DNA of 64,000 nt from Chytridium lagenaria (taxonomy: Eukaryota; Chytridiomycota; Chytridiomycetes; Chytridiales; Chytridiaceae): positions 176,988 through 240,987 of the forward strand of contig JAHLKC010000051.1 of the NCBI GenBank assembly GCA_025449115.1, in the 5' to 3' direction. Positions within the stretch are counted from its first letter, which is position 1. The number at the start of each line of letters is the position of its first letter. Made by a program: the position numbers and the translations under genes. A model generated the notes under the pieces. It had not been told where the DNA came from. It searched no databases and saw only the letters and a program-made list of their open reading frames with translations. Positions 17,533 through 55,412 of the stretch are shown here, piece by piece.

Positions 17533-18014
17533 AAGCGCACGTTACCGCAAACAACCATAGAATGACGCATTAGACCATATATTGCCATAAATAAACGCAA
17601 ATGGCCGTATACCACAGCCGTTAAGGTGATTAATGAAATATTTCAATATCTTGAGTCCATCGAATTGTAAACTTTTAAAACAGGTTTGTGGTCTGCTACG
17701 TAGGTATTCGTATACAGCTAGCTGCTGCGGTAAGCTAAGATAGGTTTATTTTATCACATCAGACTCAAACATTTGCCTTATGGCCATAGACTCTAAAATA
17801 TTATAACTTCATGTGGCGCTTCTATATTTGATTGTCTTGTACAAAAGACGATGGAATACTTGCGTACCCCACCGCCTTCGTATGAATCACTCATTTGGTT
17901 GTATACACGGCCACAGACGGTTTAGTCAGTAAAAGAATAACCATCGTGAAAGTCAAAGTTACGTCTGATAGTGCGACATTAGTATTACGTACGTAAAAAA
18001 ATTTGACGAAGAAA

Positions 18015-26930: not shown

Positions 26931-27640
26931 CGATTCCTCGAGAAGACATACGCGCGATTATCATTGGTTTCACCTTTAGTTTTAAGGTGGAGTCAGCCTT
27001 TTGGCCCCTTTTCTCTCAATGGTATGGCATCGTCTCGTAACACTCCCTGCCCCGTTTCTTATCTCGTTATTGGTGTTCTTCCACTTCGGTGTTAATGTGT
27101 TGCTTGGTTTCCTGTCCCGGGGTTCCAGGAACATTTATATGTTTTCCTCCCTTTGTTATGATTCGGCCGGTGCTGGATTATCTCCTTTCTTTGCCATCTC
27201 TTTTGTTATTATTGTTCCTGAGATCTACGACTCTTGGTGGCCCTTTTGTAGGCCTCTGCTTCATCGTCTTTTCTTTTGTCGGAACCCCCTCTTTATCTGT
27301 TGAGGTTTATGGCCCGACTTCTCAGTCTTATGCTTCTATTGTCCTCCCCATCGTTTGTGGGCTTTTTCTGTTGTCACTCGGTTTCTGTTTGATTTGTGTT
27401 TGCTTAATACATTGTTTTCTAGTCTCACGTCTTGTCTTTGTGTTGTCATGTGCGTGGTCTTCCGGGGGTGCTCGTTTCTGTTATGCTGTGGCTGTCCCCA
27501 GTTTACCCGCTGTCGGACCATCCTGCGGCTCTCTCTCTGGGGGCTCGGTTTGCTTCTCCTGTGGTCACAGACACTTTCTGGATATCTATGCATGGCGGGC
27601 GTCGTCCTCAGGATTATTGCCATTTGAAACATGATCTAAT
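26931..27640 (+). pseudogene. DIRS-like RNase H C-terminal fragment (left arm)
   Basis: The plus strand, in shifting frames, encodes FGPFSLNGMASSRNTPCP, then segments corresponding to the PPF-type and hydrophobic strands that follow RNase H in tyrosine-recombinase retroelements. It is the inverted twin of 46,270-46,980, where upstream RNase H sequence is also kept. No recombinase domain is present. Confidence 0.55.
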
Positions 27641-28167
27641 AAATCTGGATTAAGAATAGCGAGAACGAAATTGTAACAACCTTCCAAAGCCTTTCCATCA
27701 AGGTAATCGTTTACCGCTGATAAAACATCGTTGGGATCGTCGTCAGAGTCATCGGAAGATTCGAGTGAGATCTCATCGGATTCTGCAGCATCAACACTAG
27801 TAGCGGTGTCTAACAAATGCAAAGTATCTGTTAAAGAACGACGAGATATACAAACCTTCATCAAAGTCTGCCCTGTCTATAGAAATAGCCTTGTCTAAGT
27901 CGGATTACTTGTCACTGACATCATGACCTTGATCCACATCCACATCCATGCTAGGAACTACAGAAGCATCAAAACAATCTGCAGGTCCAGCCTTGCAGTT
28001 GCATCGATTACTCGCATTAAGATGGTATAGCAGCCGCTCCGGGCATTGTATTGCTTGTTGCATAGCAGGCATTCAAGCACCTTTCTTTCGCTGCAGCTAC
28101 TGACGAACTCTCATGGCCCCTCTCTTCCATGTTTTGACAAACCTTTAAAGCGTCAAGTTTATCTCCC
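27586..28167 (-). CDS. Small acidic protein gene, left arm, function unknown
   Basis: Not recognised. A minus-strand start MGDKLDALKVCQNMEERGHE at about 28,167 is followed by Cys-containing segments (CLNACYAT or, in another frame, CLLCNKQYN) and a last exon from about 27,810. That exon encodes an acidic stretch (SLESSDDSDDDPNDVL) and ends NPEDDARHA. A GTTTGTAT donor and AACAG acceptor near 27,830-27,860 suggest an intron. The central part needs a frameshift or another intron. The stop lies just beside the DIRS fragment. Confidence 0.35.
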
Positions 28168-28655
28168 ATCTTGTCACCAATTTATAAAAATCAAAAAAAA
28201 AAAAGTCCGCCATAAAAATGGTTAAGAAACCAGCTGCTCCCAACTATAATTCTAAGCATATCTCTTCATAATCCGATTTTACGAACTTTCAAACAGACTG
28301 CCGAATTCTTTGCGCTGAAAGGTGTTTTCCTGCAAAGACTTCATATCCACGACGATGCCATTTTCTTCCGCCATCCAGATTTCAGATGTGAAGCTCCCCA
28401 AAGCATGCATGATACCCGCGGCCTTCACGATCGCATCCTGATGCCTCTTTAACGCACCCGCTTCCTTGGCCGCCGACAATCCTGGTCTCCATAATCCGAT
28501 TTATGAAAAAATACTTGCTAGAAGAATTGTAATCGTGTGGCATCTACGTATATAATATTTATAGAGATACATCTATCATATATTTCTATTCACTTTTATG
28601 TTTTTTCAAAAGTAGAAAGCCGCACAAACTTGGAAAATAATTCGTCCAATTCCCC
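28168..28655. other. Intergenic, left arm
   Basis: AT-rich with an A12 run near 28,194. It contains a short minus-strand frame (KEFGSLFESS end) that I do not regard as a gene with confidence. Mirrored at 45,283-45,753. Confidence 0.5.
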
Positions 28656-31600
28656 TCAAGCCGAAAATCGGTAAGTAGCGAAACCCTTCGAGTCTCGAAT
28701 TTCAAACGCCCCATCAGCCTGCAACCCGGCAACGTAAGGCGGCGTCCCTCTCTTCCCTGAAACAGTCTGAATCGTCACATTCCCCCACATGTTCGTTACA
28801 ACCAAATCCCCATCCACCGTCAACTCCATCACAGTCTTCTCTCTAAACACCATATTACTCAAAATTTGCTTTGGCTGTGTTCCCTTCTTATTCGTCAACA
28901 CCAAGTTTCCGTTCGCACCAAGCTTGAACGATGCACCGTCCTTTTGGAATTTTTCGCCAAAAAACATGAGCCGGTTCCGGTCGGTGCGGAGAGAGTCGGT
29001 GATGGCAGGTCCATGAGACCAGAGTTTAGTGCCGCGAAGGTTGTCGTTGGTGCAACTTGTGAGCGTGAAATTGGTGCCAAGACAGGTGTCGGTTTTATGA
29101 TTCATTGTAAGGAAGTAGTCGTTGTAGTGTTTCCAGGTTGTAAAAGGGGAACAGGCAGAGAGAATGTCGGTGGCGTTTCCCAAGCAGAGCCCGGTCTCGA
29201 CGGTAGTGTTGGTTTCAGACATCGCAATATAGTGCTTGGTAGCTTCGACATACTTGAATGAGCGGCAGGTAGAGTTCGTGTAAGAGATTGGGATACAGAC
29301 GCCTGTGGCGAGATTGTAGATAGGGGCGGTCTTTCCTACGAGCGTGCACTTGGCGCAATGATCACAGGAGACGTAGGGACGAGTGTAAGTCATGTGGCCG
29401 TAAAACGTGGCGTTGAGGTCGACGCGGAGAGTCCAAGTTGGTTTCTGGATGGTGTCGGTTAATCCAAAAAGAGTGCCATTGTCAGTGATGACCATGCTGG
29501 TCATGCCGCCGTTTTCGGTGCTCCAAATGACTTTACTGCCTCCATCTTTGACTTGAAACATACCCTTGGTGTCAAGACCTGCGCGGTAGGGTGGGGTTGC
29601 AAACCACATATCCATGGTCTGGGTTTGCCACATTGTACGCGAACCGTCTTTAAGGAACAAGTTGCCACCTTCATCAAGGTACATGGAGAACCTGCCATTG
29701 GGTGAGCGGATGCCTTGGTTAGACTCGATGAAATTGGCATTGCAGGTCTCCGAAGTAACGTTTTGAATGGTCAAAATAAGTCGGTCGCCTTTCCACTTGA
29801 TGTTGGAGGGAAGGGTGTTGTGGTAATCTTTAGCTCCACTATCAGACGATTCTGTGGGTTTGACGGTTGGAAAGATTGACATGACAGGGTACTTGTAGCC
29901 GAAGCGGTTCTTGCTGAGTCTGTTCGACCAAATACGAATGTCCATGCCATCTAAAAGCTCAAGCTCGCCATCTTCCTGCAGTACTAAGGTGTATCCCTTG
30001 GATCCAAACACACCGACGGGGTAGTCAAGACCGTAAGGTTGGGTGGACCAGACGACAGTCCAATCTGATGGAGCATTGATGTAGACGCCTTGAGCTTCCT
30101 GAATGAGATGACCGTCGGTAGTTACGCGAAGACGGCAAGTGATACTTTTGGATGTAATCGGGTATCCGTTCATGATTCCTGTTGACCATTCCCGGATGGC
30201 GCCTCTGAATACACCGATGTTGCAAGAGTTTTCCGCCTCAAACTTTAAGGTAAATACCCCATTGGATCGATCTTTTTTGGTATTTGTTCCAAGCGTCAAA
30301 TCCATGACATAGCCAAACTTGAGAGCCGCTTGCTCAGGAATATTTACGTACTTTTGCGCTGCGTGTTTAAACACCTTTGAGGAGCTCCAGGATCTTCGAC
30401 CTCCATGATGCAGGTTACATTGTTGGATTGCTCAAGAGTAGGAGGTAACTGAACCTCGGTCGTGTAGATCATGTCTCCTGATTCTTCAATGCAGCTCCAC
30501 GGTGTGATTTCGGAAATAACCAGCGGTCGGCAGACAACGTACCCAATTGTACCAGGAGGAATGGGAATACTTTGAGAAGTTTCGATGGTTTGCGCGATGG
30601 TGTACATGGTGGTGTTAATTGCTTCGACAGAATTTGAATCAGCATATGCATCTGTATAGCCTTTTCCGCTGCTGTACGTCTTGGATTTGAGGACATTTTG
30701 TGCCATATGTGTTACTGGTGGTGTAGCCATACGCGTCGGTGTTGGTGATGGCCCATCCATTCTCCGTGGTGTTGCCGCTCATGTATGCGTTGGAAGTCGA
30801 ATCTGTCTGCCTCAACTCATCGGTGAAGGTGTTGGTATGCCCATGAGTGTAGGCCTTGGATCCGCCATGAGAGTAAGCAACGGTGTGAGTATTGTCGCAG
30901 TTGTGACGGACGGCGTAGTTTTCACCATTGTTCTCAGTAACGGACTGCGAGCAATCGTTACGGACAGACTTTGATTTCATGGCGCCTTGAGAGATGGTGA
31001 ATGTTACGGATCGTGCATTTTGATCTGAGATGGTGGCGGTATAGCCCGCCGATGCTGCACCTTTGGAAATTTCAAGATTGACACCTTCGTCCCAACCACG
31101 TGTTTTAGTGCAGGTCACCGTCATACTGTTATCAGCACTCTTCTGCGACACGGAGTCTCGGCTGGCACCGACGTTAAGGTTGTATTGATTTCCTCCTAGG
31201 GCTGTGTACTCATATCCGTTGCTGATGGTCTGCGTCTTGCTGTCTTCTCGATTCCAAGTGAGTTGGTTCGTCCAACTCTGCTCGTTAGAGTTGGCAGTGG
31301 TGTTGCCACGAGTAATATCAAGAGACTTTGTAAACGTATCTTGCAAATTCTTGCTGAATGAGGAGCTGTTTGTGCTTGCAAAGGTCCGGGTGACAGAGTC
31401 TTCGGTTGCCTTGCTTAATATGTCAGTAGTCGAGTCGGTGCTTCCGTCATTCCAGTTGGTGGCGTTTGTTTTTGTATATGTGACTGTATTGCCTCTGGAG
31501 ATCGCAAAGGAGATGGCGTTCGTCACAGTGACGGAAGTACTTTGGGACCAGATACACGGGGATCCTCCCTTGGGACAATTGACGCCCTTGTTGGTGAGAC

Positions 31601-32591
31601 TGTAGGCCATGCCGGTGCCGAGTCGCCTCACAACATCCGCTCTTGGAATACCTGTGAGAGCCGAGTGGTAGGGGTCCGAAAACGGTCCAGCGCTCACCAG
31701 AGGCATGCACCTACATATAGGGTTGAGTTAGACAATGCTTGGAATCAATGCTTTACAACGCAATCAACGTGCATGATCACCCTGTTTTGCTATGGAGTGA
31801 TCATCCAGAGTGATCATCCTGCTCTTGCCATGATCATCCTGCTTCGCAAGGCATGCACAGATGTGGCGCAGAAGGTGCAGGCATGATCATCCTGCTTCGC
31901 AAGACAAGTCCGCCATAGAAAAAAAAAAAAAGGAGAAACTGACAAGTTCAACATAAACATTTACTCACTTTTTGAATCCAGACAATGTTTTGACGACCTC
32001 ACGCCTTCGTAGGGCCTTTTCAGCAGGTTTTGTGATCTTGTTTGGGCAAAAGCCGTTCCCACCACCTGATCCCAGAGGAACCATGCCAGGATTGTTAGGG
32101 TTTACTTGAAGTTGTCTTTGTTGAAGCCTTCCTGTCTGCCCGACCTTGAAGTTGGCATTGTCGGGGTTCTGAGGTAAGTAGGTGTTGCATCGAGCCATCG
32201 GTGGCCCTTCAATGTTCTCTGGGGTCCCAGCTTGATCGGAAGTGATAGGAGCGTCGTTGAATTGACGGCGGCGGAAAGGTGATGGGTCTTTTGGCGTATC
32301 GGCGTCAGCAGCCTTGATAGTGGAGATCGCGTTGTTCAAAAAGTTATCACAGTCTTTTACGAGCCTGACTTGATCCTCATCAATCTTCCCATCATTGTTG
32401 CAAAAAGCTCTGCACATGGGGATTAACAGCTTTCCAAGACTGTAGCAGCCGACATTACACCCTTGCCTCCTGATGGTCTCCCACGTACTATCATCAATGC
32501 CGATGAACCCTCCGGCACAGAGGTGTGCCAGAAGGCAAAGAACGGAGAGGCATCGCAGAAGAATGAATGACGGCCGAAGTCGTTGCATCAT
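28656..32591 (-). CDS. Large secreted lectin-domain protein, left copy (frameshifted)
   Basis: Exon 1 (32,591-31,969) starts with a signal peptide (FILLRCLSVLCLLAHLCAGG), then Cys-containing sequence and NNDGKIDEDQ, which resembles a calcium-binding loop. A 258-nt intron (31,711-31,968; GTGAGT...TAG) joins in phase 2 to exon 2. Exon 2 opens with a ~400-residue Ser/Thr/Asn-rich domain of alternating polar residues, predicted beta-rich, ending around SIPIPPG. C-terminal repeats follow with bulb-type-lectin character (FSMYLDEGGNLFLKDGS, GNLVLTNKKG, LTVDGDLVVTNMWG). Frameshifts lie near 30,695 and 30,368. Secretion and carbohydrate binding are inferred. The beta-rich domain might be pore-forming-like, but I cannot show it. 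Confidence 0.72.
31711..31968 (-). other. Intron with repeated GATGATCA words, left copy
   Basis: Five copies of GRTGATCAY, mostly within GCAGGATGATCATGC-like words, plus a T11 run, all inside the single long intron of the lectin-domain gene. The twin intron at 41,962-42,218 keeps them all. Confidence 0.8.
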
Positions 32592-33614
32592 GAGCGTATG
32601 TTATTGTATATTTCTAAATCTAAGAAAGGAATATATAGGTGGCGGGTGGAAAGGATGGATTAAGTTGGGGGGGGGGGGCGGTGGAAGGGGGATATGGATA
32701 TTTTGGCACTTTGCCCACATGTATGTAATAGACAGATGTATTTCCATCAAGACAAGACATTTACTTATCACAGAAACGAATCTCTAAATATTATGAATAC
32801 GTACATGGAATGAAAATATAATAAAGAAGGGCCAAAAAATAAACAAAAAAAAAACGTGTTGGTCAAAAGGGGCAAACGGAAGAAAAAGACAAAAAATGGA
32901 AAAAAAAAAGGGATAAAAAAAAAAGGAAAAAAAGGCTTAAAAGGGAAAAAGCAAAAAGGAGAAATACATTTATATAAAGTTTGATCGTCTTATTGATAAA
33001 AGACAGAAAGTATAATATATAGTAATAGTTAATTATAGACAGGTGACCAACCACGGATGGTGTATTTTATTAATATAAATTATAGTTTTACTTAAAGTTA
33101 TAACGACTTAACCATGTGTCATTTTACTAATAAAGTAAAGGTTTCACGAAAGGTCCCAGTCTGGTTGGAAGGTTGCATCAAAAAAGGCTATCAAGAATTT
33201 CTCAACTGATTAGGGTTGGTTTCTTTTCTTTCACCTTCCTCTTTGGGTAAAGTATCTTGTTATTAGGAGGTATATTTATATTTACAGCAATGGTGACAAG
33301 CGTGGAAAAAAAAAGAAAAGAAAAAAAACCAAAAACTTTTAAAGGGTGTCTAGAAGGAGCATGTGTTGGGTGAGGTTATTGCAATAATGGACCAGTCTGT
33401 CTTAAAAGTTGGTACATATGATCGTCATTTTAACTCTACATCTCTTCTATAGTTTCCATTAAATATCACGTCATGGAATTTATTAATCATGTTTTCCACG
33501 AGGAAAGACGTTAAGCAATAGAATTAAAAAGCATAAAGACAGAGGTTAATAGACTCAGATTTCTGTACAGAAGGAGAAAAAGAAAAAAAATCAAGAATCC
33601 CAAGAACAAGAGAA
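32592..33614. other. AT-rich divergent intergenic region
   Basis: Separates the left lectin-domain gene (minus) from the secreted gene starting at 33,615 (plus). It holds a G13 run near 32,668 and many A-runs. A TATATA box at 32,631 lies 40 bp upstream of the minus-strand start codon. No gene is seen. It is not shared with the right arm. Confidence 0.6.
32631..32638 (-). promoter_or_regulatory. TATA-like box for the left lectin-domain gene
   Basis: CTATATAT on the minus strand, about 40 bp before the ATG. It is outside the inverted arm, so the right copy does not share it. Confidence 0.35.
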
Positions 33615-36600
33615 ATGCGCTTCAAGCTAATCAAGGTCGCTGGGGCAGTCGCCCTACTTGCATCCGCCGTTGCTGGAGCCATCACCGATCGTTCCGTCGT
33701 CATGCCAGCCATTGACAAAGATAAGTACTGCGTCGGTATCTCCCTGTTTCATGCCGTATGGAACGTCAAGCAAGCCTTGCCATTCTTTTCAATCTCCTTA
33801 CTCCCATTTGGAGATATACCAGCTTTCGACGAAGATAACGGCATTTTGCTTGCCAATAGCATCGCTTACGGATCGTCAGACTTTTTCTCCATCATCAACT
33901 ACCTTGAAGCAATTATCGACGAGGGTATTGCCACGGTCCCCAAGGCTAACGATGCGATCACTAGAATCAAAGGCGCCGTTCGTCTGATCGGAGAAATCTC
34001 TTCTTGTGAGCCGCAAATTAACCGGCAGCGTCGAGCCTCCGAGTTTGTGGACAAGATGATAGAGAGTTATGGTGCCAGATTCCGTGAAGAAGACTCACTG
34101 ATTGATATCGACGCTCCGTACACCAAACTTGACCCCAACGAAGACTTCGCTGATGAAACTCTCTTCTTTGACCTCAAGGCGTACCCTTCACTTGTGAACA
34201 TTGACACAGCCAATGAAACCGAATACCTTGAGGCGTACAATTTGATCATAGAGCCTATCCTATCTTATGTCTTCGACGCCATCCTTCTGGAGAACCGACA
34301 GGCCGACATTATTCCGAGGCGACGAAGGCGTAGTGAAGTCCAAACTCCTGGCCAACAGGCAACAAGTGGTGTGCTCCCCATGCTCCGCGAGCCCTCCGGC
34401 GCCCTTTCCTCACAAAATGTTGAAAACGCCATCGACACCAATATCAGGCCAGCTTCTGTGCCAATGCCCACAACCTTCTGGGACGGCGTTCAGCAATTTA
34501 TTATCAGACCTAATGCTTTATCTGCATCCGTCATCGTCGAGCTATCCACAGAGACCCTCGATGCAAATACATTGACAAAAGCCTCGTTGATACAATCAAT
34601 AGGACGGATCACTGTCATAAAGAGTTCGAAAGACGTCGCCGCCTTTGGAAATACGATGGCATCTAGTATCTCTCAACGCGTTGAAAACCTTTTGCTATCT
34701 TTGCCGACTGTTGACAAGCTAGTGAAAGAGGTCGCCTCGTTGAATCGACTCGGGACTGAAACCAAGGTTCAGGAATTCTTTTCGAGCCTTGGGTACATCA
34801 TCGGTGAGAAACCCAGCACTGTCGTGTCTTCGTATAAACAAATCTTTAAGAATCTTGCCGTCAGCGGTGGAGGTAAGAGTAATTTTTAAGATCAGGAGAG
34901 CATTTGGCTATACTTTATCTTCCCGCTTATTTTCTGCTCAATTAGGTGGAGCGACTCACCCAACCTTTGGTACGTCCGACATTGAGAAAGCCTGGGACCA
35001 AAACAAGGGTTTTAGCTTTCCAAAGTTCCTCGGCATCGCTATCGCCAGAGAGTTTGAAAAAGACCCGGTTAATGCTATGAATACGCTCCCTGCCTTCGTC
35101 GACGGGCTCTTCTACGATTTCGAGAGCAAAGAGCTCCTTGCTATCAATGACAACGCTTTCATGGAAAGCCTTGATAGGTCTCTCACCGAAAGCGTCAAGA
35201 ACAAGGAGGAAAACAAGCAAAATGCCATCAAGTTCTTGAACATGTTCACCGTAGAAAGCCAAGTTGTGCGGTTCGTCAAAAACTTCCAGAGCAAGGTCGG
35301 CTTAGAAGGCAAGGCTCTTCAAAGTGTTAAGGATGTCGTGGACTATATGACTTCCGACCAAAACGTCGACGCCCCTGATCGCATAGCCATATTCGTTCGA
35401 GGGGCAAGCCTGCTTTCGCGAGGGATCCTTTACAGCGGGAATGAAAATTACAAGGAAATTACACCTGAAGCCATGGTCGACGCTCAACTTGACAGCACAT
35501 TCAAGTTGGTGAGCGGCGTCGTCGGTACTTTTGGGCTAGGTCTTGCAGAAACCGTTCAAGCCGGATTGGCTATGATGAACCTCGAACTGGTAAAAATTCC
35601 TTCGAAAATCACCTCTCAAGATCTTTTGACAGAAGATACTGTTGAGGGCAGACCTCCTTACTATTCCCCAAAGGGCCTCTTTGTCAAGTGCAATCCAAAA
35701 TGCAGCCCAGAGCAAGTCAAATTTCCGCAATCCATCATCAGTCTTTCAGGGATCTGGAAGGCGCCTCTTTTCATCTTAAGTTTGATCCTGATAGTGATGG
35801 TTACTCGGGTATGAGTCTAGTTGGAGAGAAGGGCAAGGCCACCCTCGATGGCGTACGAGAGGCTCTTGTACAAAAGCTCGATGAGATGGTGAGCTTGTCC
35901 CTCAATGGTCAAATTGATAATGAAGTCGTCCTTGGAGCCATCGACTCTGCGATTGCTAAGATGGGGAAGGAGGAGCTTGCCTTTGACGATTTCTACGGAT
36001 CCGAGATGGGCAAGATGTTTATAAATGGACTGACTCAGCGCCTCAAGCTTCAAACTAAAAATCCCATCCCCAGGCAGAGTCTCCGTGGCGATATTTCTGA
36101 TGACGACCTCGAACAGTCTTTCAGGACTATTCTTACACAATTCAAGACCGATCTCGGCGAAAAGAACCCCGCTATTGATTGCCATCGATGTGTTCAAATC
36201 AGATATTCCAGATATCTTTGCCAAAGTCAACGAGAATCTCGAAAGGGATGGTAGACCACCCATAGAGACGAGAGACCAAGCTGTTGCCTACATGATGGAC
36301 CAGTACAAGAATCCCCAGAAAGTTCCTACCAGCAAGATTCCAGCGCGTGCCATCCAAAATTACGTTGCTCAAAGCCGGTTTGCAACCGTCTCAACTCTCG
36401 ACTCATCAAATTACGATATTTCCAAAGGTTTCGCCAGCAACGACCTTATCGATCGTGCCAATTCGATGGCCGATACAATTCGCCTCGAATTCTACACGCC
36501 CGCTGTTCCAGACGAGGTTGTTGCGCTAGATGGAATCATAAAGGCTGCAGCGGCAGTCCGTCTACACGCAAGTCAAATCTCCGACAAAGAGACAAAGGCT

Positions 36601-37364
36601 AAAGCGATTGACTTGACGAAGAAAACTCCGACTGATAGCGCAGCGCCGGATGCGGACGGTGACGTGGCGTTCACTCAGATTTTCTCCACGAATGTTAGAG
36701 GCGATTACTACGCAGACGATGGCCCAAGTTGTGGAAACGTTGACTTTTTATGCTGATAACTATTTGACGGAGTTGAAGGTTGCGGGCGACAGTGATAGTA
36801 GCGTTCTCAGAAGTGAGGGCAATGCTTTTGTCTTCCGGATTGTGACGAACAATGTTCGTCAGGCCATCAAGTACATGCAGTACAAGCTTGACAAGCTTGC
36901 AGACGATAAGACATTTCAGTCGACGGATGATGACACAAATACGTTTGAAGGTCTCCAACGCCTGGACGAAAAATTGGAAGAGACCGCCTCCAAAAATGTT
37001 GAACTCCTGGAAAGCATTGATGGCAAGATGCCTAATGTGTTTTCTGACGATCAAAGTGATGGGTCGGACAGCTGAACACGGCCGAAGGAACAGAATATAA
37101 GGTAATTTTATTTTTCTTCTTCTGTAAATTTACAGTTTAATCCTCTGACTTCAAACATTAATACCTTCTTGATATTTTTAATAGGGAGGTCCCCTCAACC
37201 GAAGGCTACAGCGACCCACTCTTACTAGAAAAACTGACAACCTGCCGAGTGGTGGTCAAGTGTCCATTTTTCAGACCAGAGGAGTAAAATCAGGATCGGG
37301 TCAATTTTTCAACAGGCCTGGAGGTGCTAGACAGACGGCCATCAAGTTCTACACCAAGAAGTAA
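33615..37364 (+). CDS. Large predicted secreted protein, unknown family (frameshifted)
   Basis: Signal peptide at the start (IKVAGAVALLASAVAGA). Exon 1 runs to 34,872. A 72-nt intron (GTAAGA...TTAG) joins in phase 1 to exon 2 at 34,945 (GATHPTFGTSDIEKAW). The reading then moves between frames near 35,745, 36,170 and 36,720. A likely last intron (37,102-37,184) leads to a basic C-terminus ending ARQTAIKFYTKK, which needs one more frame change near 37,060. Total length would be about 1,200 residues, mostly helical and acidic, with dibasic clusters (PRRRRRSE near residue 240; INRQRRASE) that could be processing sites. No known domain is recognised. Confidence 0.6.
34873..34944 (+). other. Intron of the 33,615 gene
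   Basis: 72 nt, GTAAGAGTAA donor and GCTCAATTAG acceptor. Removing it keeps phase 1 and joins two well-conserved open frames. Confidence 0.8.
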
Positions 37365-38082
37365 CCTCTTACTAAGCTTGATGGCAAATTAGAAATAAAA
37401 AGCTTTTATCTCTCTCCGATGTAAACTTCTTTATAGTCGCCCTCATTCGTTTTTAAGGTAAGTAAAGGGATGGGAAGACATTTAAGACTTCGGAAATTCA
37501 ATGCAAGCATACGAAAAATCCTGCCATATGAACACATCTTCACTCACCGAAAAAAAGTAGGTCTTAGGGGAAAGCGGCTAAAATGTGAAGTCTGAACGTG
37601 TGCGTCGCCAATTTGATCAATTTACAGTAAAGCGTTAACAGTAGTTTTGGATGGAAAGAAAATCGTCCAAGCACGAATAATTAATGCCATTAAATGTGAT
37701 TAAACGCAAAAGAAGTGTGAAAAAGACTGCAGTTTTATTATCGAAAAAACAGGTTTCGCTAATCTTTCTGTACTTCTTCAACACGGATTGGATTCAACGG
37801 CCCAATGTTTAGAGTCTTTGACGTTAAGCGCTTTACAGATCCTACAAAAAATACAATTATTATTGATACATTTGTATATCAGAGACGAGACACACCCTTT
37901 ACGGATTGCAGAATAAGTTGAGACACGACCAGCTTTAGTAGATGTAAAACTCAAAAGTTCAAAAGCGTGAACGAAAAGGAAAGGAACGGATTTTTTAAAC
38001 GGAGAAGAAAGTCTATTATTTTTTTGCCGAGTATTTAAAAGCATGAGGCAAATGTATAGATAGATAGATAGTGGAACAGAGT
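37365..38082. other. Intergenic between convergent genes
   Basis: The 3' regions of two convergent genes meet here. It is AT-rich with a (TAGA)n microsatellite near 38,056-38,070. No open frame looks genuine. Confidence 0.5.
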
Positions 38083-40678
38083 TCAAGCAAAATTGTCCCA
38101 AGTCAATGCATTGCTCTTGTTGCAATCCCACATCTGAAGGTAACCACCGTCATTCAGCCCCCTCTCCCAGTTCACACAACCCAACGGCTGCGTCTGAATC
38201 ATACCGTTAGTGATAGTCCACTTCTTCACATCCGTGCTGCAAGCCTGCATGAACAACCTCCCGTCACCCTTCACCAGGAGGATCCGCATGGAGACACATG
38301 GATGGATCATTCTTGCTTCTCATCCTACCCAAAGCATCAATCCCAAAGTACTTGCGATCGTCATTGACTTCAACGTCAGTGATGACTTTGCCTCGGTACT
38401 GACACTATCTACCCTCATGAACTTGTTGCTGAAAGCTGTCTTGTACTTGAGGTAGTTGAGGTTTGTGGGAACCACCGAGTTGATGTTGGTTGACCATCGC
38501 TGGTTGCTGTTATCCACATAGTTCAACGCGAAGATGACGACGTTAGATCCAACGGTGAGGTAGTCGTCGAGGGGTCGACCATCAGGAAGCCTGATGCTCT
38601 CATCGTTCGCGTTTCTCACAAACACAAGGCCGTTGGTTGTGCACGCAGGAGACCAATACGGTTGTCGAAGGTGTTGCCGGCGCCAGAGCTCAGGATTGCT
38701 CTCAGGGTGAAGCTTTCCTTGAGAGTCGAATGCCCACCTTTGAAGAGCGTTGGCACGGGCACGGTTCGGTGGAGATGGGGGCGTTGCGTGTGTTGCCCTT
38801 CTTTAAGGCAAGACAGGTGTTCTTGACGATCTGATATATGGGACTATAGATGAGACCGTTAGGTAAACTCTCATCGGCCACAACAACGTGCGAAACTGTT
38901 TTGTCAACCCAGCTGGAGGTGGCTTGGCAGTCGTCGCTGACCTCAAGGATATGGGACGTTGCGGCATTGAGCTCGATGGCGGGAGACCAGATGGATTTTC
39001 CGGCAGGATTGTAAACGTTTACGGAACCATCCTTTCCAAGGACCATCCGGGAAACAGCCTCGTTAAAGAAATGATGCGACGGGTGCGGCCATTGCAAGTG
39101 AGGACGAGAGCGCGCTCTTCGATGCGGAGATTGGCGATAGAGGAGTCGGAGTAGATGGCTTCACCGGACGTTCATGTAGTTCAGCGGGGTAGAGGTCCTG
39201 AGCTTAAAGACCTTGTAGCCCGTCTCTTCGTAACGCTGACCGGTGACCTTGTCGGAGCAAGTGACGATACCGTCGTCATTGATGGCGAGAACCTTGTGCG
39301 GGAAAGGAGCAGGGATGTTGACAGGGGTGATATCGTCAAAGATTAAGCCTTGGATACTTTTCCCGAACGCGCTTGAAGCGAATGTAAGCCGGCAAGTGTG
39401 AGAGAGGGTTAGGGTGAAAAATGTTTGCGAGGCGACGGTGGATTGGTCAATGATGTTAGGAGAGTAACGCCTGAGAACAACGCCGTCCTTTACAATCTGA
39501 ACATAACCATCAGAGCCGATACCTATAGCATAGAGGTTTTAGAACATGACCACAGTTTGAAGGTGCAGAGATGATAAACAAAGGTACACGCACTTACCAA
39601 ATTTAAAAGAGCCAGATGGCGAGACGATAAATTGGTCCTTGACGAGTACGGGGTTGGTGTCACTCCACAGGGCCTTGTGTTGAAGACAGGCAGTGGACTG
39701 GGAGAGGGACTGGGTGAGGGTGAGGGTGAAGTGAGGGGGTGACAGTGGTGGTGGAGGTGGGAAGGACAGGGGGAAGAGTGACGACAGGGGGCCAAGGAAG
39801 AGCAGGGTCCGATCCACTTGGCGGACCAGCATAACCAACCGTGGCGATGTCGAACACAAGAGAAGAGGTACCTGAGACTTGATCAATGACTACAATCTTG
39901 CCGTCATCTTCAATTTGGATAATGAAAGTACCAGGAAGCTCGCTTGCCTGCTTTCTTGAGATGATCGTGCCGCGGCCCTCGCCGTCCGCTGTGAAGGATT
40001 CGATGGCGCCATACTTGGAAATGGAGAGAACTCTTGGGTCGAAAGGAACGTTTGAGGCCTTGTTTAGGGCGAAATTGTTGTTGGTGCGCAAGAGGCCATT
40101 CTTGTTGAATGTGATCCACCACATGTTGTTGCTAGACCTCAGCAAGTCGCCCTCACCCATGTAGTTCAAAGACGAACTGTCCAAAAACGTCAAGTTTTGC
40201 CTAGTGGAGGGGAACGTCCACACGACGTCGTTCGCACCGTTACGGACCCTGAAGCGGCGATCGAATTCGAGGCGACCTGAAAAGTCTTGATTGTCTAGAC
40301 CGTCGTTCCACGTACAGCCAGTGCTGATGATGGATTGAGAACCCTTGTTGTAGAGCTCAATGTAACCGTCGTCTTTGATGGTGAGGGAGATGTCGTCGCC
40401 AACTTGGGGTACCTCTCCGGTGACGATGCGCTGGCTGGCTACGGTACGTTTCTTGTTGGCGACCTTTGTACCAATCTGGATGGTGAGGTAGCCGGATTGG
40501 GTAAACACGAATTGGGCATCTGGGAGGTCCGTAGTGCCGGCGACCGGAGCAATAACCATGAGACCACCGATTGGCATAAGGCTGTTTGGTCCCAGTTATA
40601 GCGGGTGAAGTCAGCCATCGCACCCGCGCCAAAGGACACGGCAGCGATGGCCAGGGATAGAAGTTTGGAGCTATGCAT
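38083..40678 (-). CDS. Secreted protein with bulb-lectin-like and ricin-B-like repeats (frameshifted)
   Basis: Starts MHSSKLLSLAIAAVSFGAGA, a signal peptide. A frameshift near 40,577 leads into a long frame of lectin-like beta repeats (LTIQIGTKVANKKR, ISLTIKDDGYIELYNKGSQ, NNMWWITFNKNGLLRTNNN, FIIQIEDDGKIVVIDQ). A Pro/Thr-rich linker (PWPPVVTLPPVLPTSTTTV) follows, then an exon junction at a 65-nt intron (39,533-39,597, GTAAGT...TATAG) and IGSDGYVQIVKDGV. The C-terminus (MQWPHPSHHFF onwards, then LQMWDCNKSNALTWDNF) has a QxW-like ricin-B flavour. Further frameshifts lie near 39,665, 39,170, 38,650 and 38,330. Probably a secreted carbohydrate-binding protein, distantly like the flanking genes in its repeats. 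Confidence 0.62.
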
Positions 40679-41335
40679 GGTTCTATCTATATATGGGTTT
40701 ACGGACGTGTTTGAATGGAAGGGAAAAGTGTTTGAAGGATAGGTGCTAAGGAGGGTGGGATAGAACGAGGAGGGGAAAAGTCTCGTCCTTATATAAAGGA
40801 ATTGTTATGTAGGGTTAAGACATTACAAATTGATAACGTGTTTGTTTTGTTTTTTCGCTAAGATGTGAAGGTGGAAAAGTTATAGGAATATGCATTGTTG
40901 TTCGAGGTAGGTCTTTGATGGTGCTTGCCATCTTTTTACATTTCCATCTTTTAAAACTCTCTTAGCCCTCCCATTATTTTCTCATTTTAAAAAAGGAAAA
41001 ATCTTAACAACACATGTCAAGTTGTCAACCAATTTATTACTTCCACTTCACAAACGGACGCAGTCAATGTTACATCGGCCCAGCCAGGGATCTCTTCCTT
41101 TCCTTCTCCTCTGCATACTCCTTCTCTCTTCTCCATCTCACCCTTCTCACGCGCTCCTCTCGTCCCTGCTCTTCCAGAAAAATGGCGTGTATTTCTCCGT
41201 ATCCATACAGCTGTTAATAATAAACGCATCGTTACTTACTTCCCTCCTCCATCCGTTTCGTCCAAAAGCTTTCCCCTCCGTTCCCCCCTACACATAACAT
41301 AATTCAAGCATACGTGAGGAAGATATCGCGACAAT
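40679..41335. other. Divergent intergenic region
   Basis: Between the minus-strand lectin-like gene and the right lectin-domain gene. It contains pyrimidine-rich DNA near 41,090-41,290 leading to the plus-strand ATG, a TATATAA box for the minus gene, and no recognisable gene. Confidence 0.5.
40789..40797 (-). promoter_or_regulatory. TATA-like box for the 40,678 gene
   Basis: TTTATATAA on the minus strand, about 110 bp upstream of the start codon, in otherwise mixed sequence. Confidence 0.4.
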
Positions 41336-44300
41336 ATGCTCGTTAGACAACGACTTCGGCCGTCATCCATTCTTCTGCGATGCCTCTCCGTTCTTTGCCT
41401 TCTGGCACACCTCTGTGCCGGAGGGTTCATCGGCATTGATGATAGTACGTGGGAGACCATCAGGAGGCAAGGGTGTAATGTCGGCTGCTACAGTCTTGGA
41501 AAGCTGTTAATCCCCATGTGCAGAGCTTTTTGCAACAATGATGGGAAGATTGATGAGGATCAAGTCAGGCTCGTAAAAAGACTGTGATAACTTTTTGAAC
41601 AACGCGATCTCCACTATCAAGGCTGCTGACGCCGATACGCCAAAAGACCCATCACCTTTCCGCCGCCGTCAATTCAACGACGCTCCTATCACTTCCGATC
41701 AAGCTGGGACCCCAGAGAACATTGAAGGGCCACCGATGGCTCGATGCAACACCTACTTACCTCAGAACCCCGACAATGCCAACTTCAAGGTCGGGCAGAC
41801 AGGAAGGCTTCAACAAAGACAACTTCAAGTAAACCCTAACAATCCTGGCTTTCCTCTGGATCAGGTGGTGGGAACGGCTTTTGCCCAAACAAGATCACAA
41901 AACCTGCTGAAAAAGGCCCTACGAAGGCGTGAGGTCGTCAAAACATTGTCTGATTTAAAAAGTGAGTAAATGTTTATGTTGAACTTGTCAGTTTCTCCTT
42001 TTTTTTTTTTCTATGGCGGACTTGTCTTGCGAAGCAGGATGATCATGCCTGCACCTTCTGCGCCACATCTGTGCATGCCTTGCGAAGCAGGATGATCATG
42101 GCAAGAGCAGGATGATCACTCTGGATGATCACTCCATAGCAAAACAGGGTGATCATGCACGTTGATTGCGTTGTAAAGCATTGATTCCAAGCATTGTCTA
42201 ACTCAACCCTATATGTAGGTGCATGCCTCTGGTGAGCGCTGGACCGTTTTCGGACCCCTACCACTCGGCTCTCACAGGTATTCCAAGAGCGGATGTTGTG
42301 AGGCGACTCGGCACCGGCATGGCCTACAGTCTCACCAACAAGGGCGTCAATTGTCCCAAGGGAGGATCCCCGTGTATCTGGTCCCAAAGTACTTCCGTCA
42401 CTGTGACGAACGCCATCTCCTTTGCGATCTCCAGAGGCAATACAGTCACATATACAAAAACAAACGCCACCAACTGGAATGACGGAAGCACCGACTCGAC
42501 CACCGATATACTGAGCAAGGCAACCGAAGACTCTGTTACTCGAAGTTTTGCAAAGACGAACAGCTCGTCTTTTAGCAAAACTCTTCAAGACACTTTCACA
42601 AAGTCCCTCGACATTACCCGCGGCAACACCACTGCCAACTCTAACGAGCAGAGCTGGACGAATCAACTTACCTGGAACCGCGATATCAGTAACACTCAGT
42701 CTACCAGCAATGGTTACGAGTACACGTCGTTGGGTGGTAACGAGTATACTCTCAACGTAGGAGCTAGCAAGGATTCCGTGTCGCAGAAGAGTGCTGAGAA
42801 TGCTGTTTCTGTAACTTGTGCCAAAACACGCGGTTGGGATGAAGGGGTCAACCTCTCCATTTCCAAAGGTGCAGCATCGGCGGGCTACACAGCTACAATA
42901 AGAGATCAGAACGATCGAAGTGTAACCTTTTCCATATCGAATGGCGCTATGAAATCAAAGTCTGTCCGTAACGATTGCTCACAGTCCGTTACCGAGAACA
43001 ATGGTGAAAACTACGCCGTCCGTCACAACTGCGACAACGCTCATACAATCACTTACTCTCATGGCGGATCCAAGGCCTACACTCATGGGCATACCAACAC
43101 CTTTACCGATGAGTTGAGGCAGTCCGATGGTGTTTCCAACGCATACATGAATGGCAACACCACCGAGGACGGATGGTCTGTCACCAACACCGATGCATAT
43201 GGCTACACCACTAGTAACACGTACGGGACAAATACGGAAAAGTCAAAGACATTCAGCAACGGTGGTGACTTTACAGATGCTTACGCAGCGTCCGGTAGCG
43301 AAGAAGCAACCAACACAACAACTTACACCATCTCACAAACCATTGAGACGACACAAAGCATCCCCATTCCCCCTGGCAATATCGGTTACATTGTCTGCCG
43401 TCCTGTGGTAGTTTCCGAGATCACCCCGTGGAACTGCATTGAAGAATCGGGGGATATGATCTACACAACTGAGGTTCAGACACCGGCCACTATTGACCAG
43501 TCCAAGAATGTTTTGCATTCTTGAATTTGAGGAGCTTGGCGCGGCACCAAAAATCTTCAAGCATTCTGCGCAGAGGTACCGGAACATTGCTGACGGATCG
43601 TCCCTCAAATATGGCTATACGTATGAGTTCAACAGTGTCAGGTCTGGGACCACGAATATCGACACGACGATCAGGAATGGGGATTACCAATTGATATTTG
43701 AAAGCCCTACCTCCTGTAACGTTGGTGTTTACTTAGGTGGATGGAGTGAATGGTCGACAGGCATCAATAACCTCTGGCTCACTCCTAAGGGTAGTCGAGC
43801 TTGTCGTCTTCGCATTACAACCGACGGTCATTTTATCCAAGAGGCTCAAGGTGTTTACGTTAATGCTCCATCGGATTGGACCGTCGTTTGGTCTACCCAG
43901 CCATATGGTGTTAATTACCCTGTCGGAGTGTTTGGAAGCAAAGGATACACTTTGGTTCTTCAAAAGATGGCGAGCTTGAGCTTTTGGATGGAATGGACAT
44001 CCGTATTTGGTCAAGTAGGATCAGTAAGAATCGCCTTGGCTACAAGTACCCTGTCATGTCCGTCTTCCCCACGACCAAAGTCACCGAGACCTCAGACGTC
44101 CTCGCTAAAGACTATCATAATACCCTTCCCTCCAACATCAAGTGGAAAGGCGACCGACTTACTTTGACCATTCAAAACGTTACTTCGGAGACCTGCAATG
44201 CCAATTTCATCGAGTCTAACCAAGGCATCCGTTCACCCAATGGCAGGTTCTCCATGTACCTTGATGAAGGTGGCAACTTGTTCCTTAAGGACGGTTCGCG

Positions 44301-45282
44301 TACAATGTGGCAAACCCAGACCATGGATATGTGGTTTGCAACCCCACCCTACCGCGCAGGTCTTGACACCAAGGGCATGTTTCAAGTCAAAGATGTAGGC
44401 AGTAAAGTCATTTGGAGCACCGAAAACGGCGGCATGACCAGCATGGTCATCACTGACAATGGCACTCTTTTTGGATTAACCGACACCATCCAGAAACCAA
44501 CTTGGACTCTCCGCGTCGACCTCAACGCCACGTTTTATGGCCACATGACTTACTCTCGTCCCTACGTCTCCTGTGATCATTGTGCCAAGTGCACGCTTGT
44601 AGGAAAGACCGCCCCTATTTACAATCTCGCCACAGGCGTCTGTATCCCAATCTCTTACACGAACTCGGCCTGCCGCTTCTTCAAATACGTTGAAAGCACC
44701 AAACACTACATTGCCATGTCTGAAACCAACACTACCGTCGAGACCGGGCTCTGCTTGGGAACGCCACCGACATTTCTCTCTGCCTGTTCCCCTTTTACAA
44801 CCTGGAAACACTACAACGACTACTTCCTTACAATGAATCATAAAACCGACACCTGTCTTGGCACCAATTTCACGCTCACAAGTTGCACCAACGACAACCT
44901 TCGCGGCACTAAACTCTGGTCTCATGGACCTGCCATCACCGACTCTCTCCGCACCGACCGGAACCGGCTCATGTTTTTTGGCGAAAAATTCCAAAAGGAC
45001 GGTGCATCGTTCAAGCTTGGTGCGAACGGAAACTTGGTGTTGACGAATAAGAAGGGAACACAGCCAAAGCAAATTTTGAGTAATATGGTGTTTAGAGAGA
45101 AGACTGTGATGGAGTTGACGGTGGATGGGGATTTGGTTGTAACGAACATGTGGGGGAATGTGACGATTCAGACTGTTTCAGGGAAGAGAGGGACGCCGCC
45201 TTACGTTGCCGGGTTGCAGGCTGATGGGGCGTTTGAAATTCGAGACTCGAAGGGTTTCGCTACTTACCGATTTTCGGCTTGA
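41336..45282 (+). CDS. Large secreted lectin-domain protein, right copy (frameshifted)
   Basis: Same architecture as the left copy: signal peptide, Cys-containing N-terminus, 257-nt intron (41,962-42,218), Ser/Thr/Asn-rich beta domain, then bulb-lectin-like repeats. Exon 1 has an extra A in an A-run at 41,576-41,580, which breaks the frame after VRLVK. Two further breaks lie near 43,515 and 43,965. None coincide with the left-copy breaks. Protein identity to the left copy is near total up to about TEDSVTR and again from about NTLPSNIKWKG, but falls to roughly three quarters between them (for example VFRGAIREWSTGIMN versus VYLGGWSEWSTGINN). The upstream region is unrelated to the left copy. 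Confidence 0.72.
41962..42218 (+). other. Intron with repeated GATGATCA words, right copy
   Basis: GTGAGTAAAT donor, ATATGTAG acceptor. Same five GRTGATCAY words as in the left copy; almost no changes. Confidence 0.8.
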
Positions 45283-45753
45283 GGGGAATTGGACGAATTA
45301 TTTTCCAAGTTTGTGCGGCTTTCTATTTTGAAAAAACATAAAAGTGAATAGAAATATATGATATATGTATCTCTATAAATATTATATACGTAGATGCCAC
45401 ACGATTACAATTCTTCTAGCAAGTATTTTTTCATAAATCGGATTATGGAGACCAGGATTGTCGGCGGCCAAGGAAGCGGTGCGTTAAAGAGGCATCAGGA
45501 TGCGATCGTGAAGGCCGCGGGTATCATGCATCACATCTGAAATCTGGATGGCGGAAGAAAATGGCATCGTCGTGGATATGAAGTCTTTGCAGGAAAACAC
45601 CTTTCAGCGCAAAGAATTCGGCAGTCTGTTTGAAAGTTCGTAAAATCGGATTATGAAGAGATATGCTTAGAATTATAGTTGGGAGCAGCTGGTTTCTTAA
45701 CCATTTTTATGGCGGACTTTTTTTTTTTTTGATTTTTATAAATTGGTGACAAG
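45283..45753. other. Intergenic, right arm
   Basis: Mirror of 28,168-28,655. It lacks a few bases in the short frame seen there (HALGSF-coding part deleted), which argues against that frame being a gene. Confidence 0.5.
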
Positions 45754-46318
45754 ATGGGAGATAAACTTGACGCTTTAAAGGTTTGTCAAAACATGGAAGA
45801 GAGGGGCCATGAGAGTTCGTCAGTAGCTGCAGCGAAAGAAAGGTGCTTGAATGCCTGCTATGCAACAAGCAATACAATGCCCGGAGCGGCTGCTATACCA
45901 TCTTAATGCGAGTAATCGATGCAACTGCAAGGCTGGACCTGCAGATTGTTTTGATGCTTCTGTAGTTCCTAGCATGGATGTGGATGTGGATCAAGGTCAT
46001 GATGTCAGTGACAAGTAATCCGACTTAGACAAGGCTATTTCTATAGACAGGGCAGACTTTGATGAAGGTTTGTATATCTCGTCGTTCTTTAACAGATACT
46101 TTGCAAGTAGCGTTGATGCTGCAGAATCCGATGAGATCTCACTCGAATCTTCCGATGACTCTGACGACGATCCCAACGATGTTTTATCAGCGGTAACGAT
46201 TACCTTGATGGAAGGCTTTGGAAGGTTGTTACAATTTCGTTCTCGCTATTCTTAATCCAGATTTATTAGATCATGTTTCAAATGGCAATAATCCTGAGGA
46301 CGACGCCCGCCATGCATA
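45754..46318 (+). pseudogene. Small acidic protein gene, right arm, broken
   Basis: Starts MGDKLDALKVCQNMEERGHE like the left copy. The last exon (VDAAESDEISLESSDD) has lost 13 bp near 46,110 and has one-base losses in GGTAAACG and GGAAAGG runs, so the acidic C-terminus shifts to a different ending. Function unknown. Confidence 0.4.
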
Positions 46319-48078
46319 AATCCAGAAGATGTCTGTGACCACAGGAGAAGCAAACCGAGCCCCAGAGAGAGAGCCGCAGGATGGTCGACAGCGGTAAACT
46401 GGGGACAGCCACAGTCATAACAGAAACGAGCACCCCCCGGAAGACCACGCACATGACAAGCACAAAGGCAAGACGTGAGACTAGAGAAACAATAATGTAT
46501 TGAGCAAAACACAAATCAAACAGAAACGGAGTGACCAACAGAAAAAGCCAACAAACGATGGGGAGGACAAGTAAGAGTATAAGACCGAGAAGTCGGGCCA
46601 TAAACCTCAACAGATAAAGAGGGGGGCTCAGACAAAAGAAAAGACGATGAAGCAGAGGCCTACAAAAGGGGCCATCAAGAGTCGTAGATCTCGGAACAAT
46701 AATAACAAAAGTAAATGGCAAGGAAAGGAGATAATCCAGCACCGACCGAATCATAACAAAAGGAGGAAAGACATATAAATGCTCGTGAAACCCCGGGACA
46801 GGAAACTAAGCCAGCACATTAACACCTGAAGTGGAAGAACACCAATAACGAGATAAGAACCGGGGCAGGGAGTGTTACGAGACGATGCCATACCATTGAG
46901 AGAAAAGGGGCCAAAGGCTGACTCCACCCTTAAAACTAAAGGTGAAACCAATGATTAATCGCGCGTAATGTCTTCTCGAGAAATCGCGTCCGCCTCAACA
47001 TTCAATACCCCCAGAACGTGCTGGAACTGAAGACAAAAACCACCAACACGCGCAAATTCAAAGATGGCTATAATCTCTGCATTAAGGGCCGGTGAAGGAA
47101 AGGAACCCTTCAAAAGAGAGTGAGTGATAAACTCCTTTAGTCCGTTCCCGCTTTTCTCCGTCTGTGTAACCCCAACTAACGCGTCCTGTGAAATGACGCG
47201 AGAAAACCATGTAGGTGAAAAGAACGCGACAGGCTGATCCCAGAGCCTAGCGGCGCCAAGCGCAGCACGGGACTCGGATCTTGCCTCCCCTACCCGCAGC
47301 AGCGTTGCGCTTACCCCACCCTCGACGCGGATGCGAACGCGCTGCACGGCACCTCGCCCGACTCTCGACGCCCCGGCGCGCACGCAAGCATGCAGTGCGG
47401 CCATCCCCGCGGACAACGCAGTGAGCAAAGTGATTGAGGACCTGGACCAAACCCAGGAGGGAAAGGGAAAACACCTCCACTGCCGTTCCTGCCAAACCCA
47501 ACTCCACCCCCAACACTCTGATCCGCCACACCACAACAGCATACGACTGGTTTTGCGGTAAAAAACCTTCGCAAACAATACAATTTCTTGGCTGCCGTGG
47601 GCCGCGTGCATGAAATTGGGCCAAGCCCGCACAACCCCCGTCCATCGCAACCAGTGCGCCAGGCAACACCACCTTCTGTTGGCCCTTCCCCGGGTACAGC
47701 GCCAGGAAACCCGCGACATCCCCCCGAGATAACCGGTCGCACCCGTCCACATTCACGCGTCGGACGTGAACCATCTGCAACTGAAACTGAAACCGAATGT
47801 GGGCCCCAACCATCTCCCGAACCAGACTTGACAGAATTAGAGTGGACCCATACCCCTTCTCAATCATGTTGTTTGCATTATCCGTGTGCCACTGGATGCA
47901 CTGCGCCAATTTTCCCCCGCCAACCGTTCATAGACCCAACGCGACGGTAGCGAGCTCCCACGTTTGGGCAGCCGGCCCCCTGGCAAGAGCGCCGACACGG
48001 TGCAGGCACCTCGCACCAACCAAAAATGATCCCTTGTGCAGAATCCCCCCCCCCGGTCAAGGAACTGTCACTCACCAC
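46270..48078 (-). pseudogene. DIRS-like RNase H region(s), degenerate
   Basis: The minus strand begins with MVSDSSLTGGGDSAQG at 48,078, fitting the first catalytic Asp of a DIRS/Ngaro-type RNase H. Next come WHTDNANNMIEKGYGSTL and VRRVNVDGCDRLSRGDV, giving further acidic sites and the D.LSR motif. A second, separate RNase H-like stretch follows (SPALNAEIIAIFEFARVGG, then LGVLNVEADAISRED), and FGPFSLNGMASSRNT lies inside the inverted arm. Two partial elements may be fused here. The frame changes several times. The tyrosine recombinase itself is not seen. Confidence 0.6.
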
Positions 48079-52285: not shown

Positions 52286-53211
52286 GGGTTATATCCCATA
52301 GTACAAAACCGACGACAACTAAAAAAATTTCGTCGAATTTGGATATAGTTTGCCGTAAATCGGCGTATGCTGCCGCTTTTGCACCAAATCAATTCGTTGG
52401 TCACACAATATTCGCCACTTATTAAATGCGGCAGAATACCGCCAAATACGTAAATTTTTTCATCATACGGGGAGCTGAATTTTCGGTCACGCAATGGAAA
52501 TTTCTTTATTTTACAGAATTCAGACAGTACCACAGGATTTGCATCGAACTATACTATAGCGCCGTAAACGGCCATCTACGGGAGTCTTCTGTTTCTCCAC
52601 CATAAGGACTTTACCGTAACCTAAAGCTTTTAATCTGAATATATATTCATTACAGTCGTACTTAAAAATTATTAGGACTCATAAACCACGTGTGCATAAA
52701 GAAAACGTTCTTCCTATTTAGCCCACATACACAGTGTTCAGTACAAACATTGACGTCAGACCGCAATACTCTTTTCCACAAAGGTATTTTTACCTTTTTT
52801 GCTTTTGTCAAACTATACTGAATTTGTGGTCATATTCTTTGTGTATACGCTGACTGTCGCAGAATGTTGACACTGCCAATGCAGGTATAATACGTTTTGT
52901 CGCGTGTACGTACGCTTACGTGCGTACACGTGCGTTTCTGTACGCGTGCGTACGTGTGCGTACGTTTGCGCACGTAAATGTAAGACGCGTGCACAAGTGT
53001 ACGTAAACGTACGCAAACGTGCATGTACATACGTATAGTGGAATCAATGCATACTTCGTGAACGTTCCTATACATACTCTTGTATTTTATTTTTGAAGAT
53101 GTTCACGATTTTTTCTCTCTAAACTCCAAAAATAAATACATTCTGCACAAAATTGGGACTTTGATAAAATATATTAACGTAATTTTGACATCAACGTACA
53201 GCACCATTAGT

Positions 53212-54932: not shown

Positions 54933-55412
54933 AAGCGCACGTTACCGCAAACAACCATAGAATAACGCATTAAACCATACATTGCCATAAATAAACGCAA
55001 ACGGCCGTATACCACAGCCGTTAAGGTGATTAATGAAATATTTCAATATCTTGAGTCCATCGAATCGTAAACTTTTAAAACAGGTTTGTGGTCTGGTACG
55101 TAGGTATACGTATACAGCTAGCTGCTGCGGTAAGCTAAGATAGGTTTATTTTATCACATCAACTTCAAACATTTGCCTTTTGGCCATAGACTCTAAAATA
55201 TTATAACTTCACTTCATTGTCTTGTACAAAAGACGATGGAATACTTGCGTACCCCACCGCCTTCGTATGAATCACTCATTTGGTTGTCTCATTTGGTTGT
55301 ATACACGGTCACAGACGGTTTAGTCAGTAAAAGAATAACCATCGTGAAAGTCAAAGTTACGTCTGATAGTGCGACATTAGTATTACGTACGTAAAAAAAT
55401 TCGACGAAGAAA

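Follow-up and report, generated by a model that had tools for sequence, protein, structure and literature searches.

An inverted pair of genes encoding proteins with lectin-like domains lies in a 64,000-nucleotide stretch of the chytrid fungus Chytridium lagenaria (GCA_025449115.1, contig JAHLKC010000051.1, here C51, positions 176,988–240,987). This stretch, referred to below as the window, reaches the contig end in a genome of 41.9 Mb and 356 contigs. Self-BLAST of the window places copy A in arm A (32,590 to 26,931, minus strand) and copy B in arm B (41,344 to 46,983, plus strand), with a spacer of about 8.75 kb between them. We read A and B as probably old inverted paralogues whose ends have been repeatedly overwritten by interlocus gene conversion and whose core has long escaped it, and we give this reading a probability of roughly 0.7. 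Conversion, rather than one duplication, thus appears to have made the ends alike. Homogenization of the flanks by conversion had already been proposed when the letters alone were read, and it is still the best reading because it explains tracts of differing divergence, an unconverted island, and the identity of the introns, and because four homologues from Dinochytrium kinnereticum are without such ends.

Divergence along the inverted arms

The two arms were aligned and identity was read in 50-column windows. Those in the 5′ part reach 98–100% (the exceptions being one window at 89% and a partial window at the border) and those in the core (about A 31,428–29,817) span 50–96%, while most in the 3′ part lie at 94–100%, the others falling to 78% at a 49-column island and to 90–92% in a few distal windows. 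Segmentation of the ungapped columns with four preset divergence states returned eleven segments, the main ones of which are given here in A coordinates. Substitutions amount to 0.2% in 32,585–32,079 and 32,072–31,429, which are separated by a complex indel site (32,078–32,073). In the core they amount to 24.6% in 31,428–30,981 and 28.9% in 30,806–29,817, with a segment of 5.7% in between (30,980–30,807). Toward the 3′ end follow 1.8% in 29,816–29,272, 26.5% in the island at 29,271–29,223 (13 of 49 columns), 0.2% in 29,222–27,587 (3 of 1601), and 4.2% in the distal segment 27,586–26,931 (27 of 649). Over A 31,428–29,821 as a whole, 403 of 1604 columns (25%) differ, and the borders are sharp. 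The sequence-only reading had described near-identical arm ends around a diverged core, which self-BLAST, the 50-column windows, and the segmentation all confirm, with its core borders off by 2–3 bp on the left and 3–9 bp on the right. The unconverted 3′ island, the partly converted island inside the core, and the greater divergence of the distal 650 bp, which match a dispersed repeat, go beyond it.

Even divergence along the arms is rejected by both the 50-column windows and the segmentation, in line with what had been noticed earlier. Within the gene part including the intron (28,656–32,585), the longest identical runs measure 566, 544, and 483 bases. When the 435 differences were shuffled 10,000 times over the 3919 sites, no run exceeded 127 bases. 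Runs of the observed length rule out even divergence, although alone they do not separate conversion from import of a core. The tracts of the 3′ part differ from one another even inside the same exon, with 12 differences in the 531 positions of A 29,820–29,290 (two of them at the core border) and none in 29,214–28,656 (Fisher p = 1.7e-4). Of the differences that remain in the ends, many are 1-bp indels, several within homopolymer runs, and many of the 1-bp differences between the arms may be assembly errors. The two largest indels in the 3′ noncoding flank of B, deletions of 14 and 16 bases, look real.

On the left, the likeness of A and B ends at the start codon, each copy having its own ATG in dissimilar sequence. 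The 1-kb upstream regions align with a score of 25, which is at chance level (200 shuffles: mean 22.3, maximum 30), and such unlikeness beyond the start codon is expected of old paralogues. The possibility that A and B are alleles of one locus laid out twice was rejected because the sequences outside the arms differ. The near-zero divergence in the ends, which extend for about 1.15 and 1.6 kb, resembles a recent copy and would suit a recent inverted duplication of one gene, after which one core was replaced by conversion from a third, diverged paralogue. We consider this sequence of events unlikely, as it needs a second import for the 49-column island, leaves the 1.8% and 4.2% tracts to be explained by something else, and has the duplication happen to begin at the start codon. 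Taken together, the 49-column island, the partly converted core island, and the start-codon border fit repeated conversion better than one recent duplication, and old paralogues under repeated conversion require one process, whereas duplication with import requires several.

Under repeated conversion between old paralogues, exchange between the arms would overwrite the 5′ end again and again, stopping at the start codon, and would also overwrite the 3′ end and its flank. The core would persist because its divergence blocks strand exchange, because selection removes conversions within it, or both. Divergence itself hinders recombination, which is limited by mismatches, and the core differs by about a quarter.

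Coding sites and lectin-like domains

Codons were counted piecewise in the frames as they stand. Across the 523 codons of the core, A and B differ by a synonymous divergence (dS) of 1.36 and a nonsynonymous divergence (dN) of 0.15. The resulting dN/dS of 0.11 (bootstrap 0.076–0.151) marks a protein constrained by purifying selection, with synonymous sites near saturation. The comparison of core and flanks called for by the sequence-only reading accordingly gives values that are not near 1 throughout. In exon 1, dS is 0.03, most differences lying at the start-codon border and at the complex indel site; at the start of exon 2 it is 0.01; and in the 3′ end it is 0.067, about half of the synonymous changes coming from a 22-codon island that itself has a dS of 1.4. 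The last 183 codons hold no change between A and B. Apart from the 22-codon island, the ends thus show a dS of 0–0.07, and the intron is without substitutions, so synonymous and intron sites alike have been homogenized. The partly converted island within the core (30,980–30,807) has a dS of 0.22. The GC content at third codon positions is 0.52–0.62 in all parts and highest in the 3′ end.

By eye, copy A has a hydrophobic N-terminus, presumed to be a signal peptide, and the protein is probably secreted. In the C-terminal part, the Pfam bulb-type lectin family PF01453 matches copy A with 33.9 bits, above the gathering score of 32.4, and stays below that cut-off in copy B (26.3) and in the related proteins introduced in the next section (P0007, 26.3; P0006, 25.6; P0001, 24.8; P0002, 20.8); P0003, which is without a C-terminus, gave no PF01453 match. 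Comparison with PDB sequences yielded weak bulb-lectin matches in the C-terminal half, the best being Putidacin L1 (E 2.1e-5). Weak bulb-lectin matches were also obtained with P0006, and a PDB sequence search with a piece of the B core reached a best E of only 0.75. A profile of the segment 30,260–29,922 and its counterparts matched chains of the agglutinin 1bwu and of the lectin 1kj1, the alignments covering 19–27 positions with E values of 0.002–0.03; Pfam gives no recognition of this segment, which we call, with caution, the first lectin-like domain. Bulb lectins have the canonical mannose motif QxDxNxVxY, and none of 14 sequences contains an exact match to it (seven window pieces, copy B exon 1 not included, and P0001–P0007, P0004 being the window's own protein). 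The two predicted structures were poor (mean predicted local distance difference test scores, pLDDT, of 50.1 and 27.8) and were not used. Among the 50 Foldseek rows listed for the first model, template modeling scores (TM-scores) did not exceed 0.15 by query or 0.35 by target, and the bulb lectins among these rows were not used either.

The stretch 30,377–30,130 (82 codons), which runs into the first lectin-like domain, evolves fastest, with a dN of 0.46, a dN/dS of 0.28 (0.12–0.59; 863 of 1000 bootstraps usable), and 49% of residues shared by A and B; the other three core parts have a dN of 0.08–0.16 and a dS of 1.1–1.8. Positive selection is not seen in dN/dS averaged over the core or in this fastest stretch, which is the sole hint of selected difference. 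If selection acts on the core, this stretch would be its likeliest target. The partly converted core island coincides with a part that is well conserved among A, B, and the Dinochytrium proteins, which matches what selection would predict and weakly favors it. Of the earlier suggestion that the core is protected or selected for difference, the retention of old differences stands, and selection for difference is unproven, the core dN/dS being 0.11 and only 30,377–30,130 being fast.

A larger proposal of the sequence-only reading, a two-locus diversification system in which conversion between the arms makes new lectin variants under selection for diversity, finds no support here and is in our view very unlikely. 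The fast stretch speaks for it, as do inverted arms around a spacer of this length, which would permit exchange and spacer inversion. The core is constrained, however, and even the 0.28 of its fastest stretch does not amount to positive selection. Full-length copies number only two, accompanied by short decayed scraps with no donor set found; conversion here homogenizes rather than shuffles; and the sole visible older converted tract of the core sits where the protein is well conserved. A related and improbable idea is that a lectin locus of two specificities is actively maintained: selection would purge every conversion that blends A and B in the fast stretch leading into the first lectin-like domain, continual arm-to-arm copying would share the rest, and inversion of the spacer would swap the pairing of promoter and core.

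Two frame changes in copy A, both inside the core, and at least four in copy B, in exon 1 and the core, could be taken for an assembly artefact or for two decaying pseudogenes, and the assembly does seem prone to indels. Conserved RNA polymerase subunit and HSP70 genes of the same assembly (L033, L036) look frame-broken too, which points to assembly indel errors. On contig C12, a gene for the second-largest RNA polymerase subunit is matched, at three places, by adjoining pieces that lie in different open frames, two of these switches being traceable in the listed open frames, and two tandem HSP70 genes are likewise matched in abutting pieces. An HSP70 gene on C29 looks better, with frames of 253 and 377 residues around an intron-sized gap and one TAG inside the match, and a polymerase gene on C19, again with one TAG, shows a frame of 286 residues. 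The breaks in A and B are thus no proof of decay, and assembly indel error appears to be their simpler reading. A core difference of 25% at a dN/dS of 0.11 is impossible from read error or neutral decay, and unlike sequences flank the two arms, which leaves artefact or decay scarcely credible.

Relatives and other copies

The nearest relatives are hypothetical proteins of Dinochytrium kinnereticum (P0001, P0002, P0003, P0005, and P0006, the last having 1201 residues and appearing full-length). A distant one, P0007, about 31–33% identical, comes from Irineochytrium annulatum, which we take to be a chytrid. Three protein searches at E ≤ 0.001, which need shared short words and one of which scored only the best 7994 candidates, gave no further organism besides the window's own P0004, and among the papers searched none mentioned both bulb-type lectins and chytrids. 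Comparison by 50-residue blocks on a P0006 ruler (blocks 1–50 and 151–200 left out, 51–100 partial) puts A and B at 96–100% identity in the comparable end blocks and at 44–90% in the core blocks, with 86% in block 1001–1050, where the 49-column island and two mutually compensating frame breaks of B lie. Between A and P0006, the same end blocks share 60–78% (24% in block 51–100); the ends of A and B are thus closer to each other than to the Dinochytrium protein, a likeness of paralogues within the flanks. No identical ends were found among the Dinochytrium proteins: the 5′ end could be compared in one pair, P0006 and P0003, which share 58–90% per block, and the 3′ end in P0006, P0001, and P0002, which share 54–94%. 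The contigs that encode them measure 1.2–20.7 kb, so some copies may not be represented.

DNA and protein searches of the genome itself with the 3′ part, the 5′ end, the A core, and the B core found no third full-length copy or core and no intact donor; these searches score only the best candidates, and the genome may be incomplete. Short and decayed scraps of the family lie on C71 (L027 and L028, C-terminal) and on C163 (L029, core), the latter sharing 76% with A and 72% with B where A and B share 69%. These scraps lend something to a recent duplication followed by core import, since the one on C163 implies that other core lineages existed, and so does the greater distance of B from P0006 in blocks 601–750 (46–64%, against 56–73% for A). 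Against such an import, an intact donor was not found in the assembly, and over residues 301–600 A (56–78% per block) and B (58–78%) are about equally far from P0006, so that neither looks foreign there.

Several points weigh against the view that A and B are old paralogues under repeated conversion. Groupings, which rest on bootstrap values, unite A and B against Dinochytrium over residues 321–600 (support 91–92), so that this part postdates the separation of the two lineages, and orthologous sorting inside the core is unsupported for these residues. Residues 601–735 hold 13 informative sites and give no clear grouping, and over 736–790 B joins the distant P0007 with a support of 83 on 55 columns in which B is incomplete. 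The nearness of P0006 to A in blocks 601–750 would also fit a foreign segment in B. For the 3′ noncoding flank, conversion or the original duplication must have extended over 1 kb beyond the gene; the core could persist without selection; and the data come from one assembly.

The distal 650 bp or so of the arms are a degenerate dispersed repeat, and beyond its repeat end arm A meets multicopy sequence that we read as Copia-type; both limit what the 4.2% tract tells. Coordinates are collected in Table 1. Exon 2 of copy A ends at 28,656, and by eye the intron of this copy (31,711–31,968) holds short repeated units around GCAGGATGATCATG.

Table 1. Features of the two gene copies and their arms, in window coordinates
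Feature	Position	Strand	Basis or remark
Copy A exon 1, about 207 codons from first ATG (32,591)	31969..32591	-	Open frame; homogenized from 32,585 on, complex indel site excepted
Copy A intron, about 258 bases	31711..31968	-	GT..AG read by eye; 0 substitutions vs B, one homopolymer length difference
Copy A exon 2 start, homogenized	31429..31710	-	Codon counts and segmentation
Copy A diverged core, dS 1.36, dN/dS 0.11	29817..31428	-	Segmentation and codon counts
Partly homogenized, older tract within A core, 5.7%, dS 0.22	30807..30980	-	Segmentation
Fast-evolving stretch running into first lectin-like domain	30130..30377	-	dN 0.46; A/B protein identity 49%
3′ end tract 1, older conversion, 1.8%	29272..29816	-	Segmentation
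Unconverted island, 13 of 49 columns differ	29223..29271	-	Alignment and segmentation
3′ end tract 2; coding part with 0 substitutions from 29,214 on	28656..29222	-	Codon counts and segmentation
Copy A 3′ noncoding flank, near-identical to B; no other genome place listed	27587..28655	-	Alignment, genome search
Degenerate dispersed repeat at arm A end, 4.2% vs B	26931..27586	-	74–75% to copies on C36, C63, C109
Copy B 5′ end: exon 1, intron, exon 2 start, homogenized	41348..42500	+	Exon 1 frame-broken in assembly
Copy B diverged core	42501..44121	+	Codon counts and segmentation
Copy B 3′ coding end; unconverted island at 44,667–44,715	44122..45282	+	Segmentation
Copy B 3′ noncoding flank, near-identical to A save indels (largest 14 and 16 bases)	45283..46318	+	Alignment
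Copy B degenerate repeat at arm end	46319..46986	+	Genome search and segmentation

Elsewhere in the window, a direct repeat of about 3.35 kb occupies 14,921–18,238 and 52,286–55,637 (97.2% identity, 19 mismatches, 23 gap openings), and an array whose period is close to 55 bp (about 18,530–18,923) adjoins its first copy. Open frames of Copia-type retrotransposons lie at 51–3,590, 10,445–13,834, and 58,289–62,070, with RVT_2, rve, or Pol_BBD domains in the scanned frames 51–3,590, 58,289–60,097, and 61,123–62,070, and 1–3,032 is 99.9% identical to 10,776–13,807. Between the arms, 33,615–36,756 holds a series of open frames, each overlapping the next in another reading frame, which may together form a single gene whose start, judged by eye, is hydrophobic; none of the four frames scanned there had a Pfam match above the cut-off.

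Comparison with known systems

Cassette-based antigenic variation relies on conversion among gene copies that encode a surface or secreted protein. The A/B core is, in contrast, constrained, and instead of a silent donor array only A, B, and the short decayed scraps were found in this possibly incomplete genome. The Dinochytrium proteins and P0007 are homologous to A and B, with weak bulb-type lectin matches in P0001, P0002, P0006, and P0007, but the Dinochytrium copies differ along the compared length, without identical ends. Mammalian X-chromosome palindromes are reported to have arms kept more than 99% alike through arm-to-arm conversion (PMC8981503). They resemble the present pair in having inverted arms kept similar by conversion and differ from it in that the A/B arms keep a long diverged core.

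Duplicates under gene conversion show a divergence peak, as in the primate red and green opsin genes, and the A/B pattern matches such a peak (PMC3924837). Both systems are linked duplicates with low divergence in the converted parts, introns included, and a peak in one coding part (PMC3924837); the A/B pair is inverted, its peak spans about 1.6 kb at a dS above 1 rather than one exon, and its copies are not known to differ in function. In the opsin peak, orthologues are closer than paralogues (PMC3924837), which does not hold for A and B in residues 321–600, where they group together (support 92). The core is old, yet most of it postdates the split from Dinochytrium, which argues against strict opsin-like retention across species; this contrast lowers the likeness to the opsins and leaves the conversion reading unaffected. 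In sum, A and B look like a clear though unexceptional instance of neighboring duplicates under gene conversion, with no new mechanism shown. They provide a clean natural example of mosaic conversion in which the tracts differ in age, one island has stayed unconverted, and a long core has been protected. Their family is uncharacterized and was found by the searches here only in chytrid fungi, and the locus is suited to asking whether selection or recombination barriers keep the cores of duplicates apart.

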